A model generated the notes under the pieces. The model saw only the letters and a program-made list of their open reading frames with translations, was not told the DNA's origin and ran no database searches. From Aquila chrysaetos chrysaetos (taxonomy: Eukaryota; Chordata; Aves; Accipitriformes; Accipitridae): a stretch of DNA of 64,000 bases. The DNA lies in NCBI RefSeq assembly GCF_900496995.4, contig NW_024470396.1, forward strand, positions 81,415 through 145,414, in the 5' to 3' direction. Shown in pieces: positions 46,942-64,000 of the stretch (position 1 is the stretch's first letter; each line of letters begins with the position of its first letter). Both the position numbers and the translations under genes were made by a program.

Positions 46942-49900
46942 TCAGTCGAGTTTTCCGGGTCCCCAGTTTGGGGGGGCCCGGTTTGGGGGGGCCCCGCGGA
47001 CCCCCCCGGCGTTTGGCCTCCAGCTCCTGGCGCCGCTGCTGGTGCCGCTGCCCTGAGCCCGGTGGGGGGCCTGGGGGGGCACAGAGGTCATGGGGGGGGT
47101 GGTCACGGGGGGGCCTTGGGGAAAAGGGGGGGGCCGAGGGGGATGGAGGGGGGTCAGGGGATCCCGGGGGGGAGTTGGTGGTACCCCCACGGGGGAGTTC
47201 CCAGGGGAGGAGGGGGGTCCCAGGGAGGCAAATGGGGCACCCTGGGGGGATCCCTTGAGAGATGGGGGGGGTACCCCAGGGGGGCTGGGGGGGGCCCAGA
47301 GGAGCTGAGGTGGTCCCGGAGTGGCTGGGGGGGAGTCCCCTGGGGGTCCCGGGGGCTGGGGTGGTTCCAGGGGGCTGGGGGGTCCCTGGGGGGCTGGGGG
47401 GGGTCCAGAGGGTGGTCTATGGGGGGTTCCTGGGGGTCCCGGGGGGGGCTGGGGGGGGGGGTCTTACCATGCTGGCACGGCAGTGCCTCCCAGGCGTCCT
47501 CCGTGCCCCACTCCCCCCCCACCCCCCACTCCCCCTCCCCTTCCTCATCCCCCCCGGCTGAGGGAGGGGCAGTGGGGGGGGGGTCTGGCGGAGGGGTCCG
47601 GAGGTCTGTGGGGGGGCCCCCCCATCCTCCTTGCTGCTCACAGGGGGGCTCCGGGGCAGCTCCATGTCCTGGGGGAGCGCACACGGGGAGAGAGTGGGGG
47701 TCATGCTGTGCCCCTCCCCAAACTGTGACACACCCCCCCCCCCCCCCCAAAGTGTGACTCCCCCCAAACTCACCTCCAGGCTGCCCCAGTCATCGTCCCA
47801 GCCATCAGGATCCTCCACGGGGGGCTCCTCGGGGGGGGGCTCTGGAGAGGACAAACAGGGGTCGGGGGGGGTTCTGGGTGTCCCCAAGGATGGGAGGGGG
47901 TTCAGGACCCATGGGGACCCCCTGTGGGGGGGCGTTGGGGTCCACGGCAGGGGGTTTGGGGGACCCTGGGGGGTCAGTGAGGAGGTAGGGACCCCAGAGG
48001 GCGTCTGGGAACCCTTGGGGGGGGGTTGGGGGACACTCACCTCTTGGGGGGGCCGGGGGGCCCTCGGCAGGGGTCTGCGGGGGGGTCTGTGGGGGGGCCC
48101 CGGCCTCAGCCCCCATCAGCCGCGCCGTCAGGGAGGTGACACCAGTGACGGCCCAGGACACGGCAGCCCCCAGCCCCCCCGACCCACCCCCTGGACCCCC
48201 AGGGGCAGCAGCTGCACTGGGAGGGTCTGGGAGAGGGAGGGAGGGGTCATGGGGTGGCGGGGGGGCACCCCCCAAACCACCCCCATGTCCCCCCACCCCC
48301 GTGTGAGTTCCCAATGTTACCCCCTTACTGCCCCCCAGAAGCCCCCCATATGTGGCCCCCAAACTGCCCAGCAGCCCCCCATGTCCCCCCCCAACCCTGT
48401 GCCCCCCTCCAATTCTCCCCCCCTCTCCCCAGTACCCCTATTTCTCAGCCCAGCCCCTCCCATTCTTGCCCCCCCCAGCCTCCCCCACCCCGGCCCCCCC
48501 ATTCTCTCACCCTCCTCTGGGGCCCCCCCAGCTTCAGCGGCCGCCTCCAGCTGATCCAGGAAGCTGCGGATCGCCCTGAAAGCCTGGGGGGAGCCGGAGG
48601 GGGGCCCCAACAGTGAGGGACCCCCCCTGAAAGATAGGAGACTCCCCCAGCCCCAGGGACGCCCAGATGGGGACACCCAACCCCCCCAGCACATATTGCA
48701 CGAGCACCCTGACCCCCAGCACCCATTGCAAAGGGACTCCCAGCACCCGCAGCACCCCCACTGCAATGAGCCCCCCCCCAGCGCTCCCTGCACAAGCACC
48801 CTGACCCCCAGCACCCATTGCAATGGGACTGCCAGCACCCCCACTGCAATGAGCCCCCCCCCCCCCAGCACTCCCTGCACAAGCACCCTGACCCCCAGCA
48901 CCCATTGCAATGGGACTCCCAGCACCCCCAGCACCCCCACTGCAATGAGCCCCCCCCAGCACCCCCTGCACGAGCACCCTGACCCCCAGCACCCATTGCA
49001 ATGGGACTCCCAGCACCCAGACCCCCCCAGCACAAGCACCCTGACCCCCAGCACCCATTGCAATGGGACTCCCAGCACCCCTGAGCACCCCCACTGCAAT
49101 CAGCCCCCTCATTGCACGAGCACCCTGACCCCCAGCACCCATTGCAATGGGACTCCCAGCACCCAGACCCCCCCCAGCACCCCCTGCATGAGCACCCTGA
49201 CCCCCAGCACCCATTGCAATGGAACTCCCAGCACCCCCTGCACGAGCACCCTGACCCCCAGCACCCATTGCAATGGGACTCCCAGCACCCCTGAGCACCC
49301 CCACTGCAATCAGCCCCCTCATTGCACGAGCACCCTGACCCCCAGCACCCATTGCAATGGGACTCCCAGCACCCAGACCCCCCCCAGCACCCCCTGCATG
49401 AGCACCCTGACCCCCAGCACCCATTGCAATGGGACTCCCAGCACCCAGACCCCCCCCAGCACCCCCTGCATGAGCACCCTGACCCCCAGCACCCATTGCA
49501 ATGGAACTCCCAGCACCCCCTGCATGAGCACCCTGACCCCCAGCACCCATTGCAATGGGACTCCCAGCACCCCTGAGCACCCCCACTGCAATCAGCCCCC
49601 TCATTGCACGAGCACCCTGACCCCCAGCACCCATTGCAATGGGACTCCCAGCACCCAGACCCCCCCCAGCACCCCCCTGCATGAGCACCCTGACCCCCAG
49701 CATCCATTGCAATGGGACTCCCAGCACCCCCACTGCAATGAGCCCCCCCCAGCACCCCCTGCACGAGCACCCTGACCCCCAGCACCCATTACGACAGGAT
49801 TCCGCGCCCCCCCCGGCCCACCTGCTGCCGCACGCCGGGGTGGGGGTCGGTGGTGAGCCCGCAGAGGGCGGGCAGCACCCTGCCGGCGCACTCCTGCGGC

Positions 49901-52900
49901 GAGTAGCACCCATGGGTGGCGGCGAAGGCGGCGACGGCGGCCGCCCGCGCCGGGGCGAAGGGGTCCCGCGTCGCCCGCGCCAGGGCGGGGGCCAGCACCC
50001 GCTGCCGGGTCTGGCGGGGGGGGCAGAGGCAGAGTGAGAGGCGGTGGGGGGGTTCTGGGGGGGGGGGCGGGGGCGGGTGCTCACCTGGGGGGGCAGGAGG
50101 GGGCCCAGGCGCCCCAGGCAGAGGGTGGCGTTGCAGCGCAGGGGTCCCAGCGCGTCGCCCGCCTGCACCCGCAGCAGCAGCCGCGGCAGCTCCCGCCCCC
50201 GCCGGGCCTCCCCCAGCTTGGGTGCCAGCAGCACCATCGACTGCGGGGGGGGGGGGCAGGAGGTCGGGGTGGGGGGCAGAACGGACCCTGGCGTCCAGGG
50301 GGGGGCACCCACTTGTGGGGACCCAGGTGTCCGGGGGGGGGAGAGCCAGGAGTTTGGGGGGACCCAGGCGTCAGGGGACCCAGACATATGGGGGGGGACA
50401 CAGGAGGTCGGGGGGGGACCCAAGTGATTGGGGGGGGGCAGCTGCCTGTGGGGGACCCAGGTGTCTGGGGCACCCAGGGGCTCAGGTATTTGTGGGGACC
50501 CAGGTGTCTGGGGGGACCCAGGAGTTGGGGGGGACACAGGAGGTCCAGGGGGACCCAAGTGATTGGGGGGGGTCAGGTGTCTGGGGGGGGGACCCAGGAG
50601 TTTGGGGGGACCCAGACATATGGGGGGACCCAGGAGGTCGGGGAGGACCCAAGTGATTGGGGGGGGCAGCCGCCTGTGGGGGACCCAGGTGTCTGCGGGA
50701 CCCAGGAGTTTGGGGGGACCCAAGTGATTTGGGGGGGGGGTCAGGTGTCCGGGGGGAGGAACCCAGGAGTTTGGGGGGGACCCGAGTGATTGGCGGAGAA
50801 GGGGGGCAGGTGTCTGGGGACACACACACATTTGGAGGGGACCCAGATATCTGGGGGACCCAGGTGACTGGGGGGGGGGACACCCACACATCTGGGGGGG
50901 ACCCAGGTGTTGGGGGGTGTTCCCCGGGCTGGGGGGCGCCCACCTTGACGGTCTGCTCGCGGATGGCGGGGTTGGTGTCGAGGAACCCGTGGGCGACGTG
51001 GGGGAAGATCTGGGCGTCCACTGTCGCCTCGGGCAGGAACTCCACGTAGTCCTCCAGCTGGGGGGGCCCAAGTGTCCGGGTGGGCCACCCCCCCCCGACC
51101 CCCACAGCTGGGGGGACCCCAGCCCCCCCCCAGCCCTCCCCCAGTGCCCCAGGGCCGCCAGGGACCCTGGTGGCCGAGCGTCAAGGGAGGACCCCGGCGT
51201 CCGGCCCCACGGAAAACAAGGACCCGCAGGGACGAGGACCCCGGCGTCCGTCCCCATGGAAAACAAGGACCCGCAGGGACAGGGACCCCGGCGTCTGGCC
51301 CCACGGAAAACAAGGACCCGCAGGGACAGGGACCCCGGCGTCCGGCCCCACGGAAAACAAGGACCCGCAGGGACAGGGACCCCGGCGTCCGGCCCCATGG
51401 AAAACAAGGACCCGCAGGGACAGGGACCCCGGTGTCTGGCCCCATGGAAACAAGGACCCGCAGGGACAGGGACCCCGGCGTCTGGCCCCACGGACCCCGG
51501 CGTCCGGCCCCTCGGCCAGGAGGGCCCGCAGGGACAGGGACCCCGGCGTCCGGCCCCACGGACCCCGGCGTCCGGCCCCTCGGCCAGGAGGGCCCGCAGG
51601 GACAGGGACCCCCGGCGTCCGGCCCCACGGAAAACAAGGACCCGCAGGGACAGGGACCCCGGTGTCTGGCCCCACGGACCCCAGCGTCCGGCCCCTCGGC
51701 CAGGAGGACCCGCAGGGACAGGGACCCCGGCGTCCGGCCCCACGGAAAACAAGGACCCGCAGGGACAGGGACCCCGGTGTCTGGCCCCATGGAAACAAGG
51801 ACCCGCAGGGACAGGGACCCCGTTGTCTGGCCCCACGGACCCCGGCGTCCGGCCCCTCGGCCAGGAGGACCCGCAGGGACAGGGACCCCGGCGTCCGGCC
51901 CCACGGAAAACAAAGACCCGCAGGGACAGGGACCCCGGTGTCTGGCCCCATGGAAACAAGGACCCGCAGGGACAGGGACCCCGGCGTCTGGCCCCACAGA
52001 AAACAAGGACCCGCAGGGACGAGGACCCCGGCGTCCGGCCCCACGGCCAGGAGGACCCGCAGGGACAGGGACCCCGGCGTCTGGCCCCACGGACCCCCGG
52101 CGTCCGGCCCCTCGGCCAGGAGGACCCGCAGGGACAGGGACCCCGGCGTCTGGCCCCACGGAAAACAAGGACCCGCAGGGACAGGGACCCCGGCGTCTGG
52201 CCCCCACGGAAAACAAGGACCCGCAGGGACGAGGACCCCGGCGTCCGGCCCCACGGCCAGGAGGACCCGCAGGGACAGGGACCCCGGCGTCTGGCCCCAC
52301 GGACCCCGGCGTCCGGCCCCTCGGCCAGGAGGACCCGCAGGGACAGGGACCCCGGCGTCTGGCCCCACGGAAAACAAGGACCCGCAGGGACGAGGACCCC
52401 GGCGTCCGGCCCCACGGCCAGGAGGACCCGCAGGGACAGGGACCCCGGCGTCTGGCCCCACGGACCCCGGCGTCCGGCCCCACGGCCAGGAGGACCCGCA
52501 GGGACGAGGACCCCGGTGTCTGGCCCCACGGACCCCGGCGTCCGGCCCCACGGCCAGGAGGACCCGTCCCCACCTGCTGCAGTAGCTGCATGCGCAGCGC
52601 CCGGTCAGGGGAGGAGAAGAGGCGGACGATGACCGGGACGATGCGCTCCTGGTACTCGGGGGGGTCCAGCACCTTCGCCACCTGCGGGGATGGGGACGGG
52701 TGATGCCGGGGGGTGACGCCGGGGTGGGGGGGGACACGGGGGCGGGGGAGGACCCCCACCTTGAGGAGGGGGGGCAGGGCGCTGGCGTCGGCGCTGCCGA
52801 ACTCGAGGGCCGCCAGCAGCCGGGGCAGCAGCTTGTGGCGGCGGAAGGGGCCGGGGAGGGCGTCCAGGCGGCCGCTCAGCTCCTGCAGGAAGGTCCGGCG

Positions 52901-55900
52901 CTCCGAGGCATCCCGGACCTGGGGGGGGCCGGGGAGGGCGTCAGGGGGTGGGGGGGACAGGGACAGGGAGGGGGAGAGGGATGGGGGCACAGGGAGGAGG
53001 ATGGAATGGGATGAGACGGGAACGGGGCTGGAGGGGACAGGGATGGGCTGAGGATGGAGGAACAGGGACAGGGACAGAGAGCGGGGTAGGGAGAGGGATG
53101 GAGGGGACGGGGACGGGGACAAGGACAGGGATGGGATGGGGAGGGAGAGGACAGGGATGGGATGGGGACCGGGACCGCCTGGGGATGGGGACAGAGAGGA
53201 CGCGCTGGAGGTGGGAGACGGGGAGAGGCCACCGCGGAGCAGGACGGGGACAAAGCCGGGGCACCGAGGAGGAGGATGGCGGTGGGACGGGCACGGGGAC
53301 GGGGACGGCGCGGGTGGCACAGACCTGGAGCTGCTCGAGGAAGAGGCCGGTGTGGACGAGGGGGCAGGCGAGGAAGGCCCCCGGGCGCTGCAGCCGCTGC
53401 AGGAGCTGCCCCGGCCCCGGCCGCGCCGACGGCTCCGCGGCCACCAGCTCGCAGAAGGGGGGGACCAGCCCCGCCGGCAGCTGGGGACGGGGGGACGGGG
53501 GTCAGGGGGACCGCAGCGTTTTGGGGGTACCCAGGGGGGTGGGGGGAACCCAGGCAACCGGGGGGGACCCAAGCCTCTGGGGGGACACAGGTCGTTGTGG
53601 GGGCCCAGGCAGCCAGGGGGAACCCAGGTGTTTTGGGGGACCCGGGCATTCGGGGGGGACACCCAAGCCTCTGGGGGGACACAGGTCGTTGGGGGAACCC
53701 AGGGGTTTTGGGGGCACCCAGGGGGGTGGGGGGAACCCAGGCACCCGGGGGGACCCAGGTGGGTGGGGGAAGCCAGGCATTTGGGGGAACCCAGGGGGGT
53801 GGGGGACCCACCTAGGCATGCAGGGGAGACGCGGGTGTTTTGGGGGACACAGGAGTTCAGGGGACCCGGGGGGAGGGGGCTGAACCCAGCAGCCGGGGGG
53901 GGGGAAACAGGTGCTGGGAGAACCCTGGTGTTTGGGGTGGCCCAGGCTGGGGGGGGCGCGACCCCCGCGTCCGGGGGGGGGCCCGGGGGACCCCGGTCTC
54001 CGTGCTGACCTTGCCGAAGCTGCGCAGGGCCGTGGGCCGGGGAAGGGGCCCGTTGAAGACCTCCCAGACGAGGCAGCCCAGGCGCCACATGTCCCCCGCC
54101 CTGGGGAGAGCCGTGGCAGCACGGGGACACGGGGACCCGCCCGGTCTCCTCGTTCCCCCCCCCCAGCCCCCCACGGCCACCTTCCCCCCAGCCCCATGAC
54201 CCCCCCCATATCCCCCCGTGTCCCTCCCCAGCCCTTGCGTGTGTCCCGCTGGTGTCCCCCCGTGTCCGCCCCAAGAGCCCACGTGTCCCCACGTCCCCCC
54301 CGTGGCCCTGTCCCCCCCCCACAAGACCCCCATGGCCCCCCCAGGCCCATGTCCCCCTGACCCCCATGTCCTCCCAATGACCCCACGTCCCCCCCATGGC
54401 CCTGTGTCCCCCCACAAGACCCCCATGCCCCCCCCAGGCCCCACGTCCCCCTGACCCCCCAGGTCCTCCCATGACCCCCAATGACCCCACGTCCCCCCCA
54501 GGCCCTGTGTCTCCCCACCATGCCCCCCCATAACTCACCAGGGCTCACCCTGTCCTCGTGAGGGGTCGCTGAGCTCGGGGGGGTCCTGGGGCCGGGGGGG
54601 CACGCCGGGGGGGCGGGGGGGGACCCCCTCGCTGGCGGCCGCCACCCGCTCCAGGCCCCCCAGCTTCCAGTCGCCCCCCGGGTCGACGAAGATGGCGTCC
54701 AGCCCCAGCGCGTGGTGCACCAGCCCCGAGCCCCCCAGGAAGGACAGCGCCGTCTGCGGGAGCGCTCGGTCGTGATCGGGGACGCCCCGGATGATGAGGT
54801 ACCCCCCCCGGATGATGAGGCACCCCCCCCCAGACGCCTGGGTCCCCTTCTGAACACCTGGGTCCAACCCTGCATGCCTGGGCCCCCCCAAATGCTTGGG
54901 ACCCCCCAGACACCCGGGTCCCCCACCCCGAATGTCCGATTCCCCCCAAACGCCTGGGTCCCTCCCGGACGCCTGGGCCCCCCCCTAGATCCCAGGGTCA
55001 CCCCAGATGCCTGGGTGTCCCCCCCCAGATCCCAGGGTTCCCCCGGACACCTGGGCCCCCCCCCAGATCCCAGGGTCCCCCCGGACACCTGGGGCCCCGC
55101 AGATCCCAGGGCCCCCCCCAGATCCCAGGGTCCCCCCGGACACGGGGGTCCCCTCCGCCCCCCTCACCAGGAGCTGGTGCAGCCCCCAGGCCACCTCCTG
55201 CTCCCCCAGGTCTCCCGTCGGGGGCCGCAGCTGCAGGTGCCGGCGCAGTGGCGTCACCGCCTCCGTCACCAGGTACAGGCACTGCTCCGTCTGGGGGGGC
55301 CGCCACGTCACCGCACGCACCCCCCACATGTCATCGCGTCCCCCCACAGCCTCACAGGCCCCCCCACGTCCCTCTGTATCCCCACGCTGTCCCCGCATCC
55401 CCCCACGTGCCCCCACCTCCCCCTGCGTGTCCCCACACATCCCTGTCCCCCGTGTCCCCCCGTATCCCCCCCACATCCCCCCCCCCATCGCCCCCCAGGA
55501 AGGACAGCATCCCCGTGTCCCCCTCCCCCCGTGTCCCCCCGCATCCCCCCGCATCCCCCGCGTCCCCTCGCTGCGCCCACGTCCCCCCGCATCCCTGCCC
55601 GGCCCCGACGTCCCCGTCCCCGTCCCCCCCCCGCGCCCCTCACCTCCAGGCTGTCGAGGTATCCCAGGACGCTGGGGTGCCGCAGGCTGCGCAGGCGCCG
55701 CAGGGCCGCCCGGGCCAGGGGGGTGGCAGCCGCGTCCCCCGCCCCCAGGCTGTGGGCGAAGACTGACACCGGCGCCCCCGTCCGCCTGGGACACGGGGAC
55801 ACTGTGGGGACGGGGGTCGTGGGGACACGGGGGGGGGCACGGGGACATGGGGATGGGGGGTACGGGGACACTGGGGGGGCACGGGGACATGGGGATGAGG

Positions 55901-57251
55901 GGTACGGGGACACGGGGGGGACACGGGGGGCCAGGGAGACACGGGGGGGCATGGGGGGACACAGGGATGGGGTGGTACAGGGACATGGGGGGACATGGGG
56001 ACATGGGGATGGGGGGTACGGGGACACGGGGGGGCACGGGGACATGGGGATGGGGGGTACGGGGACACGGGGGGGGGGCACGGGGACATGGGGATGGGGG
56101 GGTACGGGGACACGGGGGGCACGGGGACATGGGGATGGGGGGTACGGGGACACGGGGGGGCACGGGGACATGGGGATGGGCGGTACGGGGACACGGGGGG
56201 GACACGGGGGGGACACAGGGATGGGATGGGATGGTACAGGGACATGGGGGGGTACAGGGACATGGGGGGGCATGGGGGGACACAGGGATGGGGTGGTACA
56301 GGGACATGGGGGGGTATGGGGACATAGGGGGACATGGGGATGGGGGGGTACGGGGACACGGGGGGCATGGGGGGACACAGGGATGGGATGGGGTGGTACA
56401 GGGACATGGGGGGGTACGGGGACATGGGGGGACATGGGGATGGGAGAGTACGGGGACATGGGGGGGACACGGGGACATGGGGACGGGGGGGGTACAGGGA
56501 CACGGGGGGGTACGGGGACATGGGGGGCCAGGAGGACATGGGGGGACATGGCGGGGACACGGGGACGGGGGGGTACAGGGACATGGGGGGGCAGGGGGAC
56601 ATGGGGGGGCAGGGGGACATGGGGGGACACGCAGACGGGGACCAGGGGATCGTGGGGACATGGGGATGGGGGGGTACGGGGACATGGGGGGGCATGGCGG
56701 GACACAGGGATGAGGGGACAGGGAGACATGGGGGTACGGGGACATGGGGGGGACACGGGGGGGACACGGGGGGACACGGGGATATGGGGGTGACATGGGG
56801 GGAGCATGGGGATGGGGGCCAGGTGGACATGAGGGGACATGGGGGGACACGGGGATATGGGGGGGCATGGGGACATGGGGGGGGCATGGGGATGGGGGCC
56901 AGGTGGACATGAGGGGACATGGGGGGACACGGGGATGGGGGCCAGGAGGTCGTGGGGACATGGGGGGGACACGGGGGGACACGGGGAAGAGGGGCAGGGG
57001 GGCCCGGGGATGGGTGGGCCTGAGGACACGGGGGCAGGGCGACACGGATACGGAGACACGCCGCGGACAGGACGGGCCCCCCCTCCCCGCTACCCCCCCG
57101 CCCCCCCCCACCTTTCGCCGCCCCCGCAGCAGCCGCCAGAGCGGGGCCGGGTCCGCGTCCGCCGCCGGGCCGAGGCCGGGTCCGGAGCCGGGTCGGGCGG
57201 GCCCAGCTCGAAGGGGAAGTCCCGCACCGGGTCCCGGGAGAAGAGCCACAT
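46942..57251 (-). CDS. SCYL1: SCY1-like pseudokinase 1 (16 exons)
   Basis: SCYL1 is a catalytically inactive kinase with HEAT repeats that binds COPI and supports Golgi-to-ER traffic. Exons in transcript order: 57,112-57,251; 55,644-55,785; 55,168-55,290; 54,549-54,753; 54,010-54,100; 53,324-53,480; 52,760-52,918; 52,574-52,681; 50,944-51,057; 50,085-50,240; 49,822-50,010; 48,511-48,583; 48,041-48,226; 47,774-47,841; 47,468-47,668; 46,942-47,070. The start [61 protein letters not shown] and RATRDPFAP are diagnostic. The C-terminus ends KLD, near the RKLD COPI signal; an extra A near 46,950 disturbs the preceding frame. Further slips lie in exon 1 (near 57,170-57,190) and exon 15. The REKW-type segment before DMWRL was not found. 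Sum is near 747 residues, against 808 in human. Confidence 0.95.
48690..49800 (-). repeat. Palindrome-bearing minisatellite in SCYL1 intron 11
   Basis: About fourteen units combine GAGCACCCTGACCCCCAGCA with CCCATTGCAATGGGACTCCC. Each carries the perfect 14-base palindrome CCCATTGCAATGGG (one copy ATTGCAAAGGG, one TCCATTGCAATGGG, one degraded at 49,785). Higher-order blocks of about 210 bp (for example 49,112-49,310 and 49,322-49,590) show recent expansion. Long frames on both strands are artefacts of the repeat. Confidence 0.92.
50290..50940 (-). repeat. GACCCAGGTGTCTGGGGGG-type repeats in SCYL1 intron 9
   Basis: Short units (GGGACCCAGGTGTCTGGGG, GACCCAAGTGATTGGGGGG, CCCAGGAGTTTGGGGGG) recur in mixed order across the intron. 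Confidence 0.8.
51175..52570 (-). repeat. About 1.4-kb minisatellite in SCYL1 intron 8
   Basis: Roughly thirty units of about 46-60 bp are built from GACCCGCAGGGACAGGGACC, CCGGCGTCTGGCCCCACGG and either AAAACAAG or CCAGGAG. Two alternating unit types form higher-order patterns. All six frames stay open for long distances, so the long predicted proteins here are spurious. Confidence 0.93.
52920..53320 (-). repeat. GGGACAGGGATGGG-type simple repeats in SCYL1 intron 6
   Basis: Purine-rich imperfect repeats of GGGACGGGGACGGG and GGGAGAGGGATGG fill the intron on the plus strand. Confidence 0.7.
53500..53880 (-). repeat. CCCAGGGGGGTGGGGGGAAC repeats in SCYL1 intron 5
   Basis: Units with GGGGACACAGGTCGTTG, GGGTTTTGGGGGCACCC and AACCCAGGCAACCGGGG words repeat with a period near 80-130 bp. 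Confidence 0.7.
54180..54530 (-). repeat. CCCCACGTCCCCCCCATGGCCCTGTG repeats in SCYL1 intron 4
   Basis: A unit of about 95-125 bp with ACGTCCCCCCCATGGCCCTG and CACAAGACCCCCATG repeats three times between exons 4 and 5. Confidence 0.75.
55800..57010 (-). repeat. 1.2-kb GGGGACATGGGGATGG minisatellite in SCYL1 intron 1
   Basis: Units such as GGGGACATGGGGATGGGGGG followed by GTACGGGGACACGGGGGG repeat from about 55,800 to 57,010 with a basic period near 24-30 bp and longer composite blocks. The plus strand is almost pure G-rich with GGGG runs at regular spacing. Open frames are artefacts. Confidence 0.92.
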
Positions 57252-57869: not shown

Positions 57870-58490
57870 CTGGGGGTCCCCGCCATGATACGGGGTCTGT
57901 TGTGACACGGGCTCATCAAAGCGGTACAGGGTCCCCGTCGCGATACGGGCTCCGCTGTGACACGGGCTCGTCAAAGCAGTACAGGGTCCCTGTCGCGATA
58001 CGGGCTCCATTGTGACATGGGCTCGTCAAAGTGGTACAGGGTCCCCATCCCGATACAGGCTCCGTGACACAGGCTTGTCAAAGCAGTACAGGGTCCCTGT
58101 CGCGATACGGGCTCCATTGTGACATGGGCTCGTCAAAGTGGTACAGGGTCCCCATCCCGATACAGGCTCCGTGACACAGGCTTGTCAAAGCAGTACAGGG
58201 TCCCCGTCACGATACAGGGTCTCTTGTGACACGGGCTCATCAAAGCAGCACAGGGTCCCCATCACGATACAGGGTCCCCATCACGATACAGGGTCCGTTG
58301 TGACATGGGCTCGTCAAAGTGGTACAGGGGCCCCATCCTGGCGTGGAGTCCTCGAAGGAACATGGGGTCCCGGTCATGCTATAGGGTCTCCGTCATGATA
58401 CGGGGTTCCCATTGCAATACTGGTCTTGAAAGAGACAGAGGGTTCCTGTCGTGGCACAGAGTCCTCAAAGAAACATGGGGGCCCCTGTCA
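57870..58490. repeat. About 55-60-bp minisatellite between SCYL1 and the lncRNA
   Basis: About ten units of GTACAGGGTCCCYGTCGCGA, TACGGGCTCCATTGTGACAY and GGGCTCGTCAAAG repeat with little divergence, fading into GATACAGGGTC words to 58,490. Confidence 0.9.
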
Positions 58491-58815
58491 TGACAAGGGG
58501 TCACCCCGTCCCTGTATGGTGGGATCCCCCAAACAACACCAAGGCCCCAGAGGAACTGGGGGGGGGGAGGGGGCTTGTCATGATACTAGGGGGCTGAGGC
58601 CCCCGGGGGGGGGGCTTGTCATGATACAGGGGGGGCTGAGGCCCCAGAGGAATTGGAGGGGCCCTATCAGGATACAAGGGGGCCCTAGGGGCCCTATCGT
58701 GATACAGGCAGGCCCGAAGCCCCAGAGGAACGGGGCGGGGGGCCTATCACGATATGGGGGGGCCGAGGCCCCAGAGGAGGAGGGGGTGGGCCCTGTTGTG
58801 ATACGAGGAGGCAGG
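58491..58815. repeat. GAGGCCCCAGAGGAACTGG repeats
   Basis: Four or five loose units of CTTGTCATGATACAGGGGG and GCTGAGGCCCCAGAGGA fill the space just downstream of the tRNA-like module on the minus strand. No gene was seen. Confidence 0.7.
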
Positions 58816-58824
58816 CCATCAGCG

Positions 58825-58884
58825 GGCGCCGCGGGGGGTCGAACCCCGCCCCGGGTGGGTCCCGGGGGTGCCCCCACCAGCGCC
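58825..58884 (-). ncRNA. mascRNA/menRNA-type tRNA-like small RNA
   Basis: The 60-base minus-strand sequence folds by eye into a tRNA-like cloverleaf. A 7-bp acceptor stem pairs GGCGCTG with CGGCGCC (one T-G wobble); a short D-like arm is GTG-GGGG-CAC; a 7-bp arm is CCCCGGG-ACCCA-CCCGGGG; and the T-arm is CGGGG-TTCGACC-CCCCG, whose loop starts with the invariant TTCGA. It has no ordinary anticodon loop and no intron. In MALAT1 and NEAT1 RNase P cuts at the 5' side of such a module, releasing a small RNA and making the 3' end of the long RNA. The 5' end here follows the A-rich tract directly, exactly where RNase P would cut. Confidence 0.93.
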
Positions 58885-58967
58885 TTTTGCTTTTTTTTGG
58901 CCTTTTTGGGTGCGGAGGAGAAAAAGCAAAACCTGAGACAACGGGGTTCTCTCAGGAAAAGAAAAAA
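58885..58967 (-). ncRNA. MALAT1-type 3'-end triple helix (ENE plus A-rich tract)
   Basis: On the minus strand the parts appear in canonical order: U-rich motif 1 (TTTTTTCTTTT, 58,967-58,957), a stem-loop pairing CCTGAGA (58,956-58,950) with TCTCAGG (58,938-58,932), U-rich motif 2 (TTTTGCTTTTT, 58,931-58,921), a GC-rich linker, and the A-rich tract AAAAAAAAGCAAAA (58,898-58,885). In MALAT1 the two U-rich motifs clamp the A-rich tract in a U-A-U triple helix that protects the non-polyadenylated 3' end. The stem CCTGAGA/TCTCAGG and the C/G interruptions match the human element as I remember it. Confidence 0.93.
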
Positions 58968-59328
58968 CCTCCCGGAGCGGGGGGAGGGGCGCCCGCCGGG
59001 GGCCCCGCCCCACCCCTCCCCCCCGGGGTGCAAACCCCCTTCCTTTGGGGGCCCTGGCCGCATTTGGGGGAATCGGGGGGAATTTGGGGCCGGAGGAGCA
59101 CGGCGGCTCCGCGGGGGGGGAGGCGGGCGGGCGCCGCCGCTGCCCCCCGAAACACCCCGCAAAGGGGCAAAGCGAAACCCCCAGACCGTGGGAAACACGG
59201 GAAACTGCCCCAAAAAGCAACCTGGGGGCGGGGCCTCCCCGGGGGGCTTTTTTGGGGGGTGGTGGTGGTTTGTTCGGGGTTTTTTTCACTGAAAAAAATG
59301 GGGTTTGGGGTCCGGTGCACTTCCCCGG

Positions 59329-59990
59329 CGCAAAACGGGCTCAGAAAGGGCGGGGTTGGGGTCAGGCACGCGTCCCCAGCGCAAAATGGGCTCAGAAAGC
59401 AAGATTTTGGGTCGGTCGCATGCCCCCAGTGCAAAATGGGGTCAGGAAGTGGGGGGTTGGGCCAGGCACACGTCCCCCACATAAAACGGGCTTGGAAAAT
59501 GGGATTTTGGGTCCGGCACGCTTCCCCGGCGCAAAACAGGTGCAGAAAGCGGGATTTTGGGTCAGGCGCGCATCACAGGCGCAAAATGGGCTCAGGAAGT
59601 GGGATTTTGGGTTGGGCATGCATCCCCATCGCACAACGGCCTCAGAAAGCGGGATTTTGGGTCGGACACGTGTCCCAGGCGCAAAACAGGCTCAGAAAGC
59701 GGGATTTTGGGTCAGGCGCGCGTCCCGGGCGCAAATCGGGCTCAGAAAGCGGGATTTGGGGTCGGGCACGTGTCCCGGGCGCAAAACGGACTCAGAAAGC
59801 GGGATTTTGGGTCGGGCACGCGTCCCGGGCGCAAAACGGACTCAGAAAGCGGGATTTTGGGTCGGGCACGCGTCCCGGGCGCAGAACAGGCTCAGAAAGC
59901 GGGATTTGGGGTCGGGCACGTGTCCTGGGCGCAAAACAGACTCAGAAAGCGGGATTTTGGGTCGGGCACGCATCCCGGGCACGGGGGGGC
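59329..59990 (-). repeat. Thirteen tandem 50-bp units near the lncRNA 3' end
   Basis: Units beginning GCGCAAAACGG recur every 50 bases (59,329; 59,379; then to 59,779; 59,829; 59,879; 59,929), each with CTCAGAAAGCGGGATTTTGG and GTCGGGCACGCGTCCCGG. The right-hand units are nearly identical, the left-hand ones diverged, which points to expansion from the right. Frames stay open because 50 bp shifts phase and stops are rare. Confidence 0.93.
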
Positions 59991-60150
59991 CCCACTGGTA
60001 CTTACTCCGCTCGCTCACCTTTCCTGCCTCTTATTTGGGGGGGGATTTCTACTTTTTAGCCATTTTTTGTACCCAATTGTCCATTTTGGGGCAGATCGAG
60101 GCCGTTTTAGGCACCGTCGCTGCGTCAGGGGGAGAGCGGGGGAGGGGAGA

Positions 60151-60225
60151 GAAACAACAACAACAACAACAACGGGCACAACAACCGGAACAACACCAGG
60201 AACAACAGCTGGAGCAACCAAGCTC
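60151..60225. repeat. (CAA)n-derived simple repeat
   Basis: Seven AAC units followed by degenerate AACAACNNCNGGAACAACA units over 75 bases. Confidence 0.85.
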
Positions 60226-62147
60226 TTCCCTACCCCAAAAATTCTGCGACTTCTCAACTCCGATTGTTTTGGGGGAAAAAAACTGGGACAAAGGTTAAAA
60301 AAAGCCTCCCCCCTCCCCAGGCAACATGCAAAGGTGCTGACTAAGCTTTCTATTTTTTTGTAAAAAGCCACATTTTCCACTAAAAGTCCCAATTTGGGGT
60401 GTGGGCCTGGCCAACAGCACTTGCTGCATGTTTTGGGGCACTTTTGGCCTTTGGGGTTGGTTTTTATTTTTCCTTTTCAGATTTGTGGATCTGGGGGAGT
60501 GGAGCAGAATGGGGGGGGAAAGCGGCAAAACCTGCCCAGGGTGAAACTGTGCCACCCCCATCGCACCCAAATCTGGACAGAATTTCCCGGGTTTGGGAGT
60601 GAAAGCAGCAGAAATACCCTTTTTTTTGATCCCTACGTGTTTCTGAAGACCCTTTTTTGCCCCAATCTGGCGGTTTGAGACTACGGAATCCTCAGCTTTA
60701 CAGTCGGAGGCGCAGGAGCAGCGGGTGTGGGCGCCGGCCGGGGGGTCTGGAAAAAACACCTGCGAGACACAGCCCCCCCCCACCCCGTCAGCCACCTTTT
60801 GGGGTAAAAGCAGTAAAGACACCCATTTTTTTCCCATTTATCCGTAAAAACCATCGTTTCTCGCATCGCTCCACACCGGGAGGGGGGTGACGGGGTTGGG
60901 GGGGCGTAACCATGCCGCGCGGCCATTTTGGGGGCCCCAGCACTCCCCCCACCAGTGCAACCACGCCCCAACACCCCCACGATACCGAAAATGGCTGGAA
61001 ATGCCCCAAATCCGCAGCCCCCCCGCCTCCCCGACCCCAAACCGGGTGATTTTGGTGAACCGGGGGTTTGGGGCGCGCCGGGAGTACTTGCCACCATCGC
61101 AGATGAAGCCATTTGGGGGCTTTTGCCTTAATTTTTTTTGCTCCCCCCTCGCTCGCTCCTACACTTACAGCTTGTTTTGGGGGAAAAAGCCTAAATTTAA
61201 TCATCCTGCTGCTGTTTATGGAGAAAACCTGAAAATACAATTATTGCACCCCCCCCGCCCCCGCTTGGCTCCGTCCCCCTCCCCTGCTGAGCGTTTTAGG
61301 GGGTTGGGGATTTCTTTACGTTATTTTTTCCTAAGGGAAGCTCCTGGGGACGCTCGGCACGAGCCGCAATCCTGATTTTCCAGCTCCGTTTTGGGGGGAA
61401 AAAAGCGGCTTTTCTTCCAAGCTGCCTCCTACCACTGCATCTGCGGAAAGGCTGGAAACAAGCCCAAAACGCGCCGCCCCCCCTGCCACACCCCCGGGCC
61501 AGACCCTGACCCAGCTCCACCAGCCAGTAACCAACAGAAACGCCCCAAAACAACAAAATTAAATAAAAATCTTACTTCTGACCGGCTCCACATTAATCAA
61601 ATCAGTGTTTTTATCCTCAAAGGTCCCTGTGGAAAAGCTCCTGAGTGCGCTCTGGCTGCAGATTTGCCTTTTTTGGTTAAATCCCGAGACCCGGGGTCTC
61701 TTTTTATTTTTCCTTGGCATTTTTCTCACCGTTATTTGCCTTTTTTTCTTGCGTTTTGCTGCTTCCCTGAGGGGGCAAAAACACTCGAGACCCCCCCCTC
61801 CGCCCCCGCAAAAACAACCCTTTTTTTTCCTCTTTTCCAGAGAGTTTCAGCCATCCCCTCCCGCACATCGCCTTTTTTTGGGGAAAAAGAAGGGATTTTT
61901 GATCACTTACTCTGCGGCAACAGGCGGGACCTACGGAGCGCTACGGCCGGAGCCTGGTGACGCTGGAGTGGGGTTTGGGGGGGGGGGGGGAGTCCCCATT
62001 TCTTGGGGGTTTTACAGAAAAAAGGGGGGAGTGGGGGTGACGGCCACGGCGCCTGCAACGACAAGAGCCCCCCCCACCCCCCCAAACCCCCCCAGAACGA
62101 GCGGGGGGAAGGGCCTCACCCAGCTGCCGCCTCCAGCCAGTTCCTCC

Positions 62148-62918
62148 TCCAGCCCCACCAGCTCCGGCTCCGTTTTGGGGCGTTTCCTTAAATTCCTGAA
62201 AATCTCCTTCCTCCAGCAGGTTCCTGTTCGCCATTTGCTCTTTTCTTGCCTTTCTCTTCCTTTTCTCTCCAGTTTCCTGCTCCGTACCACCTTCCTCCGG
62301 CTCCTGCTCTTTTTCTCCTTATTTTTTTTTAATTTAATTTCTCCAGTTTCACCAGTTTCCACTGGCTTCGTTTCTCTTTTCTCCATTTCCTCCTCTTTTC
62401 TTCTATCCTCATTTTCTTATTTTTCTTCTATCCCCATTTTCTTATTTTTCTTCTATCCCCATTTTCTTATTTTTCTTTTATTCTCATTTTCTTATTTTTC
62501 TTCTATCCTCATTTTCTTATTTTTCTTCTATCCTCATTTTCTTATTTTTCTTCTATCCTCATTTTCTTATTTTCCTCTACTTCCTCTTTAATTTTCTCTT
62601 TTTCTCTTTTCTCTTACTTTTTTTCTTTTTTTTTTCTCTTTTCTCATTTTTGCCTGGTTTTTTTTCCTCTTTCCTCCTCTAGCTTCACCAATTTCCACTG
62701 GCTCCTCTGATTTTTCTTTTTTTTTTTTTTTCCTATCTTCTCCAATTTCCAGATGATTATTTTTTCCTTCCTCTATTTTCTGGTTTTCTCTCTTTTTTTC
62801 TTTTCTATTTTTTTTTTTTATTTCCTCCATTTTCTCCTGCAGCTTCACCCATCTCCACGGGCTCTTTTTCCCCTCAATTTTTAAGATTTCCTCCAGCTCA
62901 GCCAACTTGCACTGGCTC
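62148..62918 (-). repeat. Dispersed 28-nt motif, five copies, in the lncRNA body
   Basis: On the minus strand a motif with core CAGTGGAAATTGGTGAAGCT flanked by GAG on both sides occurs at about 62,341-62,370, 62,676-62,706, 62,835-62,864 and 62,890-62,918, with a more diverged copy at 62,148-62,173. Copies are separated by unrelated purine-rich sequence, so this is not a simple tandem array. Confidence 0.7.
62395..62575 (-). repeat. 27-30-bp pyrimidine-rich tandem repeat
   Basis: TTTTCTTATTTTTCTTCTAT followed by CCTCA or CCCCA recurs six to seven times. On the presumed sense strand it is a purine-rich GAAGAAAAATAAG array. Confidence 0.9.
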
Positions 62919-63059
62919 TTTCTTTTCCTCTTTTCTCCCTTTTTTTCCTCTTTTCTCACTTCTTTCTCCTCTTCCCCAGGGTTGCCCTGCCCAGCACCTC
63001 CTTCCCGGCTGCCAGACACTGCCTTTTACCAAAAAGTTTTTTAAAATAAAGCTCGACCG

Positions 63060-63735
63060 GCCCAAAAGTTCGCTTTATTTTTTAAGCAAAGCTCTTAAAG
63101 CTGCTTGATTTCAAGAAAAAAAAAGACGGGGGAAGCGTTAAGCTTTCTAAGGAAAAAAACATAAGCTCTAAAGCTGTTTTCTTTTGAATCTTAAAATACG
63201 GCAGTTCAGTCGTTCGGAGAAGAACGCGGAGCGAGCTGGGCGAGCTGGTGCACTTTTTTAAAAAAAAGCTTTCAAAGCTGACTGCTACATTTAAAAAAAA
63301 AAAAAAAAAAGCTCTTAAAGCTCTTTATTTTTAAAAACAAACCTCTTAAAGTGTTTTTAAAACACAACTCCAGGGCTGCTTCCTTTTATGAAAAAGAAGC
63401 TCTCGAAGCTGTTTTTTTTTTTTTTTTTAATTCTTAAAATACTGTAATTTGATAGTTAGAATTCAGAAACCAGAGCGAGCTAGGGCGTTTTTAAACGAAA
63501 AAAAAGCTTTCAAAGCTGCTTTACTTTAAAGAGGAAAAAAAAAAGCGCTTTTAAACCTGTTTTCTTTTAAAAAAAGCTTTTACAGCTCTTTACTTGCTTA
63601 AAAAAGCTCCTAAAGCTTGTTTGTTTTTTTTAAAAAGCTCTTTAAAGCTGTTTTACTTTTTTTTAAGAGCTCCTAAAGCTGCTTTCTTTAAGGAAAAGCG
63701 AAAGTTTTTTAAAGCTTTTTTTGTTGTTCTCCTAA
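63060..63735 (-). repeat. AGCTTTAAGAGCTTT-type short repeats
   Basis: AAAGCTCTTAAAGCTGCTTT-like words (plus strand) occur about fourteen times, separated by A or T runs. Two longer diverged blocks with CTTAAAATAC and AGCGAGCT words (63,180-63,250 and 63,430-63,490) suggest duplication of a unit of about 240 bases. Confidence 0.75.
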
Positions 63736-64000
63736 AAAGCAGCGCTGGGCCGGGGGAGCGCAAGTGGGTGCAGGTGCGGATGTTTTGGAGAGTTTGGGTG
63801 GAAATGCGGCATTTTAAGACAGACGAAAGATTGCTGGCAAAGGAAGATGGATTGAGAGAGGAGATAACTGGGGGAAAAGAAAAGGAAAAATCAAGAGTGA
63901 AGATAAACCTTGGCAGGGAGCAAGATAACGGCTTGAAGAGAGAAATGAGGGAGTTAATTTTTTTCCCCCAGCGGCCCCGGCTGGGGGAAAAAAAAAAAAG

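Follow-up and report, generated by a model that had tools for sequence, protein, structure and literature searches.

Does the DNA upstream of SCYL1 in this stretch of the Aquila chrysaetos chrysaetos genome encode the 3' end of a bird MALAT1, and from which of the two related genes, MALAT1 or NEAT1, would such an end descend? Positions 58,967 to 58,825 on the minus strand of the window (the whole stretch of 64,000 nucleotides analyzed here) almost certainly represent the 3' end of a single bird gene of the MALAT1 type, with a putative triple helix and predicted processing by RNases P and Z. In the direction of the minus strand, the following elements were found:

58,967 to 58,957, minus strand: U-rich motif 1, TTTTTTCTTTT (exact sequence)
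58,956 to 58,932, minus strand: hairpin of 25 nt between the U-rich motifs, with a 7-bp stem (RNAfold and pattern)
58,956 to 58,950 and 58,938 to 58,932, minus strand: the two stem halves, CCTGAGA and TCTCAGG
58,931 to 58,921, minus strand: U-rich motif 2, TTTTGCTTTTT, Watson-Crick partner of the A-rich tract
58,920 to 58,896, minus strand: linker of 25 nt (measured from coordinates)
58,895 to 58,885, minus strand: genome-encoded A-rich tract, AAAAAGCAAAA, abutting the tRNA-like RNA
58,884 to 58,825, minus strand: tRNA-like RNA of the mascRNA/menRNA class, 60 nt (RF01684)
58,824, minus strand: discriminator base, C

An earlier note on this DNA had placed U-rich motif 1, the stem-loop, U-rich motif 2, the A-rich tract and the 60-nt element in this order on the minus strand, and the coordinates fit that arrangement. 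In particular, motif 2 and AAAAAGCAAAA are exact reverse complements over all 11 positions, and RNAfold predicts both the 7-bp stem and an 11-bp duplex of motif 2 with the A tract. In MALAT1, U-rich motif 1 acts as the Hoogsteen strand of the triple helix. As far as the sequence allows one to judge, U-rich motif 1, the stem-loop, U-rich motif 2 and the A-rich tract provide, in order, the elements of a putative triple helix. A pattern of these ordered elements, with gaps of 12 to 42 allowed, was searched for on both strands of the 64 kb; the window gave a single match, and 100 dinucleotide-preserving shuffles gave none. The spacing had been called exact in the same note, which proved too strong a word: the hairpin, with 25 nt, is shorter than the mammalian means for both MALAT1 (31.36 nt) and NEAT1 (28.7 nt), and the 25-nt linker is nearer to the mean of mammalian MALAT1 (23.59 +/- 1.8) than to that of NEAT1 (29.8 +/- 1.06) (PMC12941219).

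The 60-nt element was matched by the Rfam mascRNA-menRNA model (RF01684), the check suggested for it beforehand, with 55.9 bits against a gathering cut-off of 42.5 (E value of 7e-9, bias of 10.0 bits). The alignment extends over the full model (1 to 56 of 56) and keeps the model pairs, and no other match at gathering level was returned by 4,227 Rfam families in the 64 kb. With E values of up to 5, the region from 52 to 64 kb gave 14 rows, among which no MALAT1 or NEAT1 family occurs besides RF01684; the other 13 lie below their gathering scores and were put down to chance or low complexity. A canonical tRNA gene was also discarded, with no tRNA reported in the window by ARAGORN (bacterial code). 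When the junction between the A tract and the tRNA-like RNA was searched for in genome contigs, four contigs with bacterial titles were returned, which were taken as chance, and there was no match in viral contigs.

The secondary structure was predicted for the isolated 61-mer, and the cloverleaf (-37.8 kcal/mol) differs from the minimum-energy fold (-40.3 kcal/mol) by 2.5 kcal/mol. Among the controls, the minimum fold of human mascRNA is the cloverleaf (-25.6 kcal/mol), and that of human menRNA (-28.7 kcal/mol) retains all four arms, its anticodon-like stem being longer. Competing folds are to be expected in the bird element because of its GC content of 87%; the folding result for the 61-mer, with energies that leave out tertiary contacts, does not favor the cloverleaf reading. 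The cloverleaf with a 7-bp acceptor stem and a TTCGA T loop, as originally proposed, agrees with the covariance alignment, the stem and the TTCGA letters, but is not the minimum-energy fold of the isolated RNA.

The acceptor stem consists of six G-C pairs and one G-U pair, and its estimated energy is -11.5 kcal/mol, versus -7.6 for human mascRNA and -6.1 for human menRNA, the same artificial loop having been used for all three RNAs. Furthermore, the tRNA-like RNA starts with GG and has C as its discriminator. In human cells, menRNA is tagged with CCACCA and degraded, whereas mascRNA is stable (PMC12941219, PMC9777231); CCACCA is added only to RNAs that begin with two Gs, as a mark of instability (PMC4307339), and tailing errors can go along with a C discriminator and a GG start, although a strong acceptor stem seems to work against them (PMC4477674). 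The GG start and the C discriminator of the bird RNA could permit CCACCA tagging, judging from its sequence. However, its acceptor stem is strong, and we therefore predict a stable, singly CCA-tailed RNA.

As to descent, human mascRNA and menRNA were compared as printed in PMC9777231, with arm borders from PMC11693755. The tRNA-like RNA is identical to human mascRNA at 42 of 57 positions (62 columns) and to human menRNA at 43 of 59 (61 columns), so that by sequence it appears about equally close to both, without a decision on descent. In its favor, descent of the gene or of its 3' end from NEAT1, or a fusion of NEAT1 and MALAT1 upon the loss of one of them, with the small RNA being menRNA and not mascRNA, has this near equality of identity and, more specifically, the 5' acceptor strand GGCGCTG, the 10-nt D arm and the TTCGA T loop, all as in human menRNA; in addition, PMC10869381 keeps the NEAT1 alternative open and finds the basal place of birds in the MALAT1 tree puzzling. 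The bird RNA differs from human mascRNA in its GG instead of GA start, in a D arm of 10 instead of 11 nt, in an anticodon-like arm of 19 instead of 15 nt and in its C instead of U discriminator, besides the stronger acceptor stem and the hairpin shorter than in mammalian MALAT1; the order of the elements is that of human MALAT1 and mascRNA. Human menRNA has three G-U pairs in its acceptor stem, compared with one in the bird.

On the other hand, the linker fits the mammalian MALAT1 mean better than that of NEAT1. The 3' acceptor strand of the bird (CGGCGCC) is closer to that of mascRNA (CGGCGTC, identical at six of seven positions) than to that of menRNA (CAGTGTT). Medaka mascRNA, too, has a compact D loop (PMC11693755), which may therefore be ancestral, and a GC fraction of 0.87 could by itself yield shared G and C letters. 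The window alone leaves the choice between MALAT1 and NEAT1 descent unsettled; the full-gene tree published in PMC10869381, which has birds on the MALAT1 side and 99% support for the MALAT1/NEAT1 split, favors MALAT1. We regard NEAT1 descent as unlikely; it concerns descent only and is compatible with the mechanism of the MALAT1-type reading.

It is also possible to hypothesize, though we consider it quite improbable, that the bird gene is a hybrid that arose after the loss of one of the two neighbors, in which a menRNA-type GG start, compact D arm and TTCGA loop are combined with a strengthened acceptor stem. If this were true, a short-lived, CCACCA-tagged RNA of the menRNA type would have become a stable cytoplasmic small RNA, and parts of the roles of both long noncoding RNAs may be united in one bird gene.

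The reading as a MALAT1-type gene also involves its position, for which the coding features of the window were mapped as follows:

49,792 to 57,251, minus strand: SCYL1 coding exons, partial mapping by nine tblastn segments, with Met1 at 57,251
About 20.4 to 22.8 kb, plus strand: otubain (Pfam)
About 26.8 to 27.2 kb, plus strand: leucine-rich-repeat protein (Pfam)
About 31 to 34.3 kb, plus strand: STI1/HOP protein with TPR repeats (Pfam)
About 36.0 to 39.4 kb, plus strand: kindlin N-terminal and FERM pieces (Pfam; one of the two kindlin pieces below the cut-off)
44.8 to 45.1 kb, minus strand: Tpt1/KptA RNA 2'-phosphotransferase (Pfam)

The tblastn query was a human SCYL1 protein sequence, and the segments run in order from Met1 down to 49,792, with residues 17 to 83 and the C-terminal part left without a segment. 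Met1 lies 1,573 bp downstream of the discriminator base, on the same strand. When the exon translations were joined, a protein search with E values of up to 1e-3 (8,000 candidates sharing most words, best 120 of 129 proteins retained) identified them as N-terminal kinase-like protein (SCYL1); among these best 120, named birds occupy 12 of the first 14 rows, which marks the window as bird DNA. Of the matches listed, Athene noctua and Lonchura striata come first, with 88% and 78%, respectively, each over 96% of the query, and Calonectris borealis has 93% over 69%. In the PDB, a single SCYL1 exon had no match, and the joined pieces retrieved 17 sequences, led by Cytoplasmic export protein 1 (3vwa, E value of 5.9e-13), which we take to be a SCY1-family protein, and the remainder PP2A scaffold subunits with E values of 6.5e-4 or weaker. 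Pfam, run in 14-kb blocks and three frames each over 30,001 to 58,000 of the minus strand and 20,001 to 47,998 of the plus strand, found no kinase or HEAT domain over the SCYL1 region, probably because the exons are short; the identity of SCYL1 rests on the tblastn segments and on the protein matches of the joined exons. The placing of SCYL1 beside the module and on its strand, as first proposed, is confirmed by these segments and by the bird SCYL1 matches, and a MALAT1-class 3' module upstream of it is borne out by the RF01684 match, the shuffles and the common strand.

Between the tRNA-like RNA and SCYL1, minisatellites with units of about 55 and 19 bp, of the GATACAGGGTCCC type, occupy 57,874 to 58,715. 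From 20,000 to 57,251, the order is otubain, leucine-rich-repeat protein, STI1/HOP and kindlin on the plus strand, then Tpt1/KptA and SCYL1 on the minus strand. From their domains and from the gene content of human 11q13, these neighbors are probably OTUB1, an FLRT1-like gene, STIP1, FERMT3 and TRPT1; joined here to SCYL1 and MALAT1, they presumably lie more than 1 Mb away in human 11q13. FRMD8, which in avian MALAT1 stands a few kb on the 5' side and on the same strand, is not in the window and would lie beyond position 64,000.

Such an arrangement has been published for birds. Weghorst et al. (2024; PMC10869381) described the avian MALAT1 module in 37 species, 14 of which yielded the complete gene; they report the same 3' module, the order FRMD8-MALAT1-SCYL1 (shown for chicken and zebra finch), very high RNA-seq coverage, and the absence of the module from white wagtail and New Caledonian crow despite room on the scaffold. 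According to the same source, no NEAT1 was found in birds, two papers from 2017 are cited for a triple helix in several birds, and no bird MALAT1 was on record before 2024, probably on account of a GC-rich, poorly assembled locus. The remark in the earlier note that MALAT1 had been reported missing from early bird genomes thus agrees with PMC10869381, where it figures as the former view, whereas the expectation that a bird MALAT1 would be a real addition was overtaken by that publication. Since avian MALAT1 was described there, the finding is a correct rediscovery: the triple-helix and tRNA-like module stands upstream of SCYL1 on the same strand in both cases, and we noticed no defining difference from the available description. 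Beyond Weghorst et al., no further paper was recognized as describing bird MALAT1 in a literature search limited by license. The window contains the 3' module and its junction with SCYL1 without gaps, which helps in studying how the loss of NEAT1 affects the tRNA-like RNA.

The published genomes and the position beside SCYL1 also bear on whether the module is a dispersed MALAT1-like copy of the triple helix and mascRNA, and not the orthologous gene. According to PMC10869381, Zhang et al. (2017) reported such copies from anole lizards and certain fish, but here the module sits next to SCYL1 on the expected strand, and the bird genomes searched gave a single match per species (PMC10869381), which makes a dispersed copy highly unlikely. 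A decayed, non-functional remnant is hardly credible. In line with it is the fold of the isolated 61-mer, whose cloverleaf falls 2.5 kcal/mol short of the minimum; against it stand the 11 of 11 complementary positions of motif 2 and the A tract, the acceptor stem with its six G-C pairs and one G-U pair, and the consideration that under neutral decay runs of A and T would probably have been lost from DNA so rich in GC.

For the MALAT1-type gene, we infer transcription, cleavage, CCA addition and nuclear retention by analogy with the family. In its members, the cut by RNase P falls on the 5' side of the tRNA-like fold; a triple helix then shields the end left upstream, and the small RNA receives its 3' end from RNase Z and its CCA from the CCA-adding enzyme (PMC11693755, PMC12941219). 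Here, a Pol II transcript of the minus strand would cover the region above 59 kb, and its tRNA-like fold would be recognized by RNase P, with a cut between 58,885 and 58,884. The mature long RNA is accordingly predicted to end at 58,885, the site being taken from family knowledge. A cut by RNase Z behind the discriminator C, followed by the action of the CCA-adding enzyme, would yield a small RNA of roughly 64 nt. The new end of the long RNA, terminating in AAAAAGCAAAA, would pair with U-rich motif 2, with motif 1 in the major groove, and the resulting triple helix may protect this 3' end without a poly(A) tail.

The long RNA that would end in this way is delimited in the window, together with its repeats, as follows:

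58,885 to at least 64,000, minus strand: putative body of the long RNA (from composition)
59,322 to 59,970, minus strand: tandem array inside the putative transcript, 50-bp unit, 13 copies, 80% matches
62,180 to 62,985, minus strand: A-rich purine block, 84% A+G (borders set by eye)
62,396 to 62,573, minus strand: array of 7.1 copies of a 25-bp unit, within the purine block

For avian MALAT1, the TATA criterion is a box 25 to 35 bp before the gene start. No TATAWAW occurs on the minus strand from 58,885 to 64,000, and the 5' end, which was not found in the window, therefore probably lies outside it. The two longest completed ATG-initiated open reading frames on the minus strand of the putative body have 180 and 176 codons. 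The 50-bp array is located about 0.4 kb before the triple-helix elements. The purine block includes the most purine-rich 200-nt tile of the minus strand of the window and contains 15 words of the GAAGAA, AGAAGA or GGAAGA type, by which it would qualify as a candidate binding region for SR proteins. Finally, from 63,053 to 63,718 on the minus strand, we could observe AGCTTT and AAAGCT words at 22 start positions among runs of T and A, which suggests repeated small hairpins in the putative 5' part.
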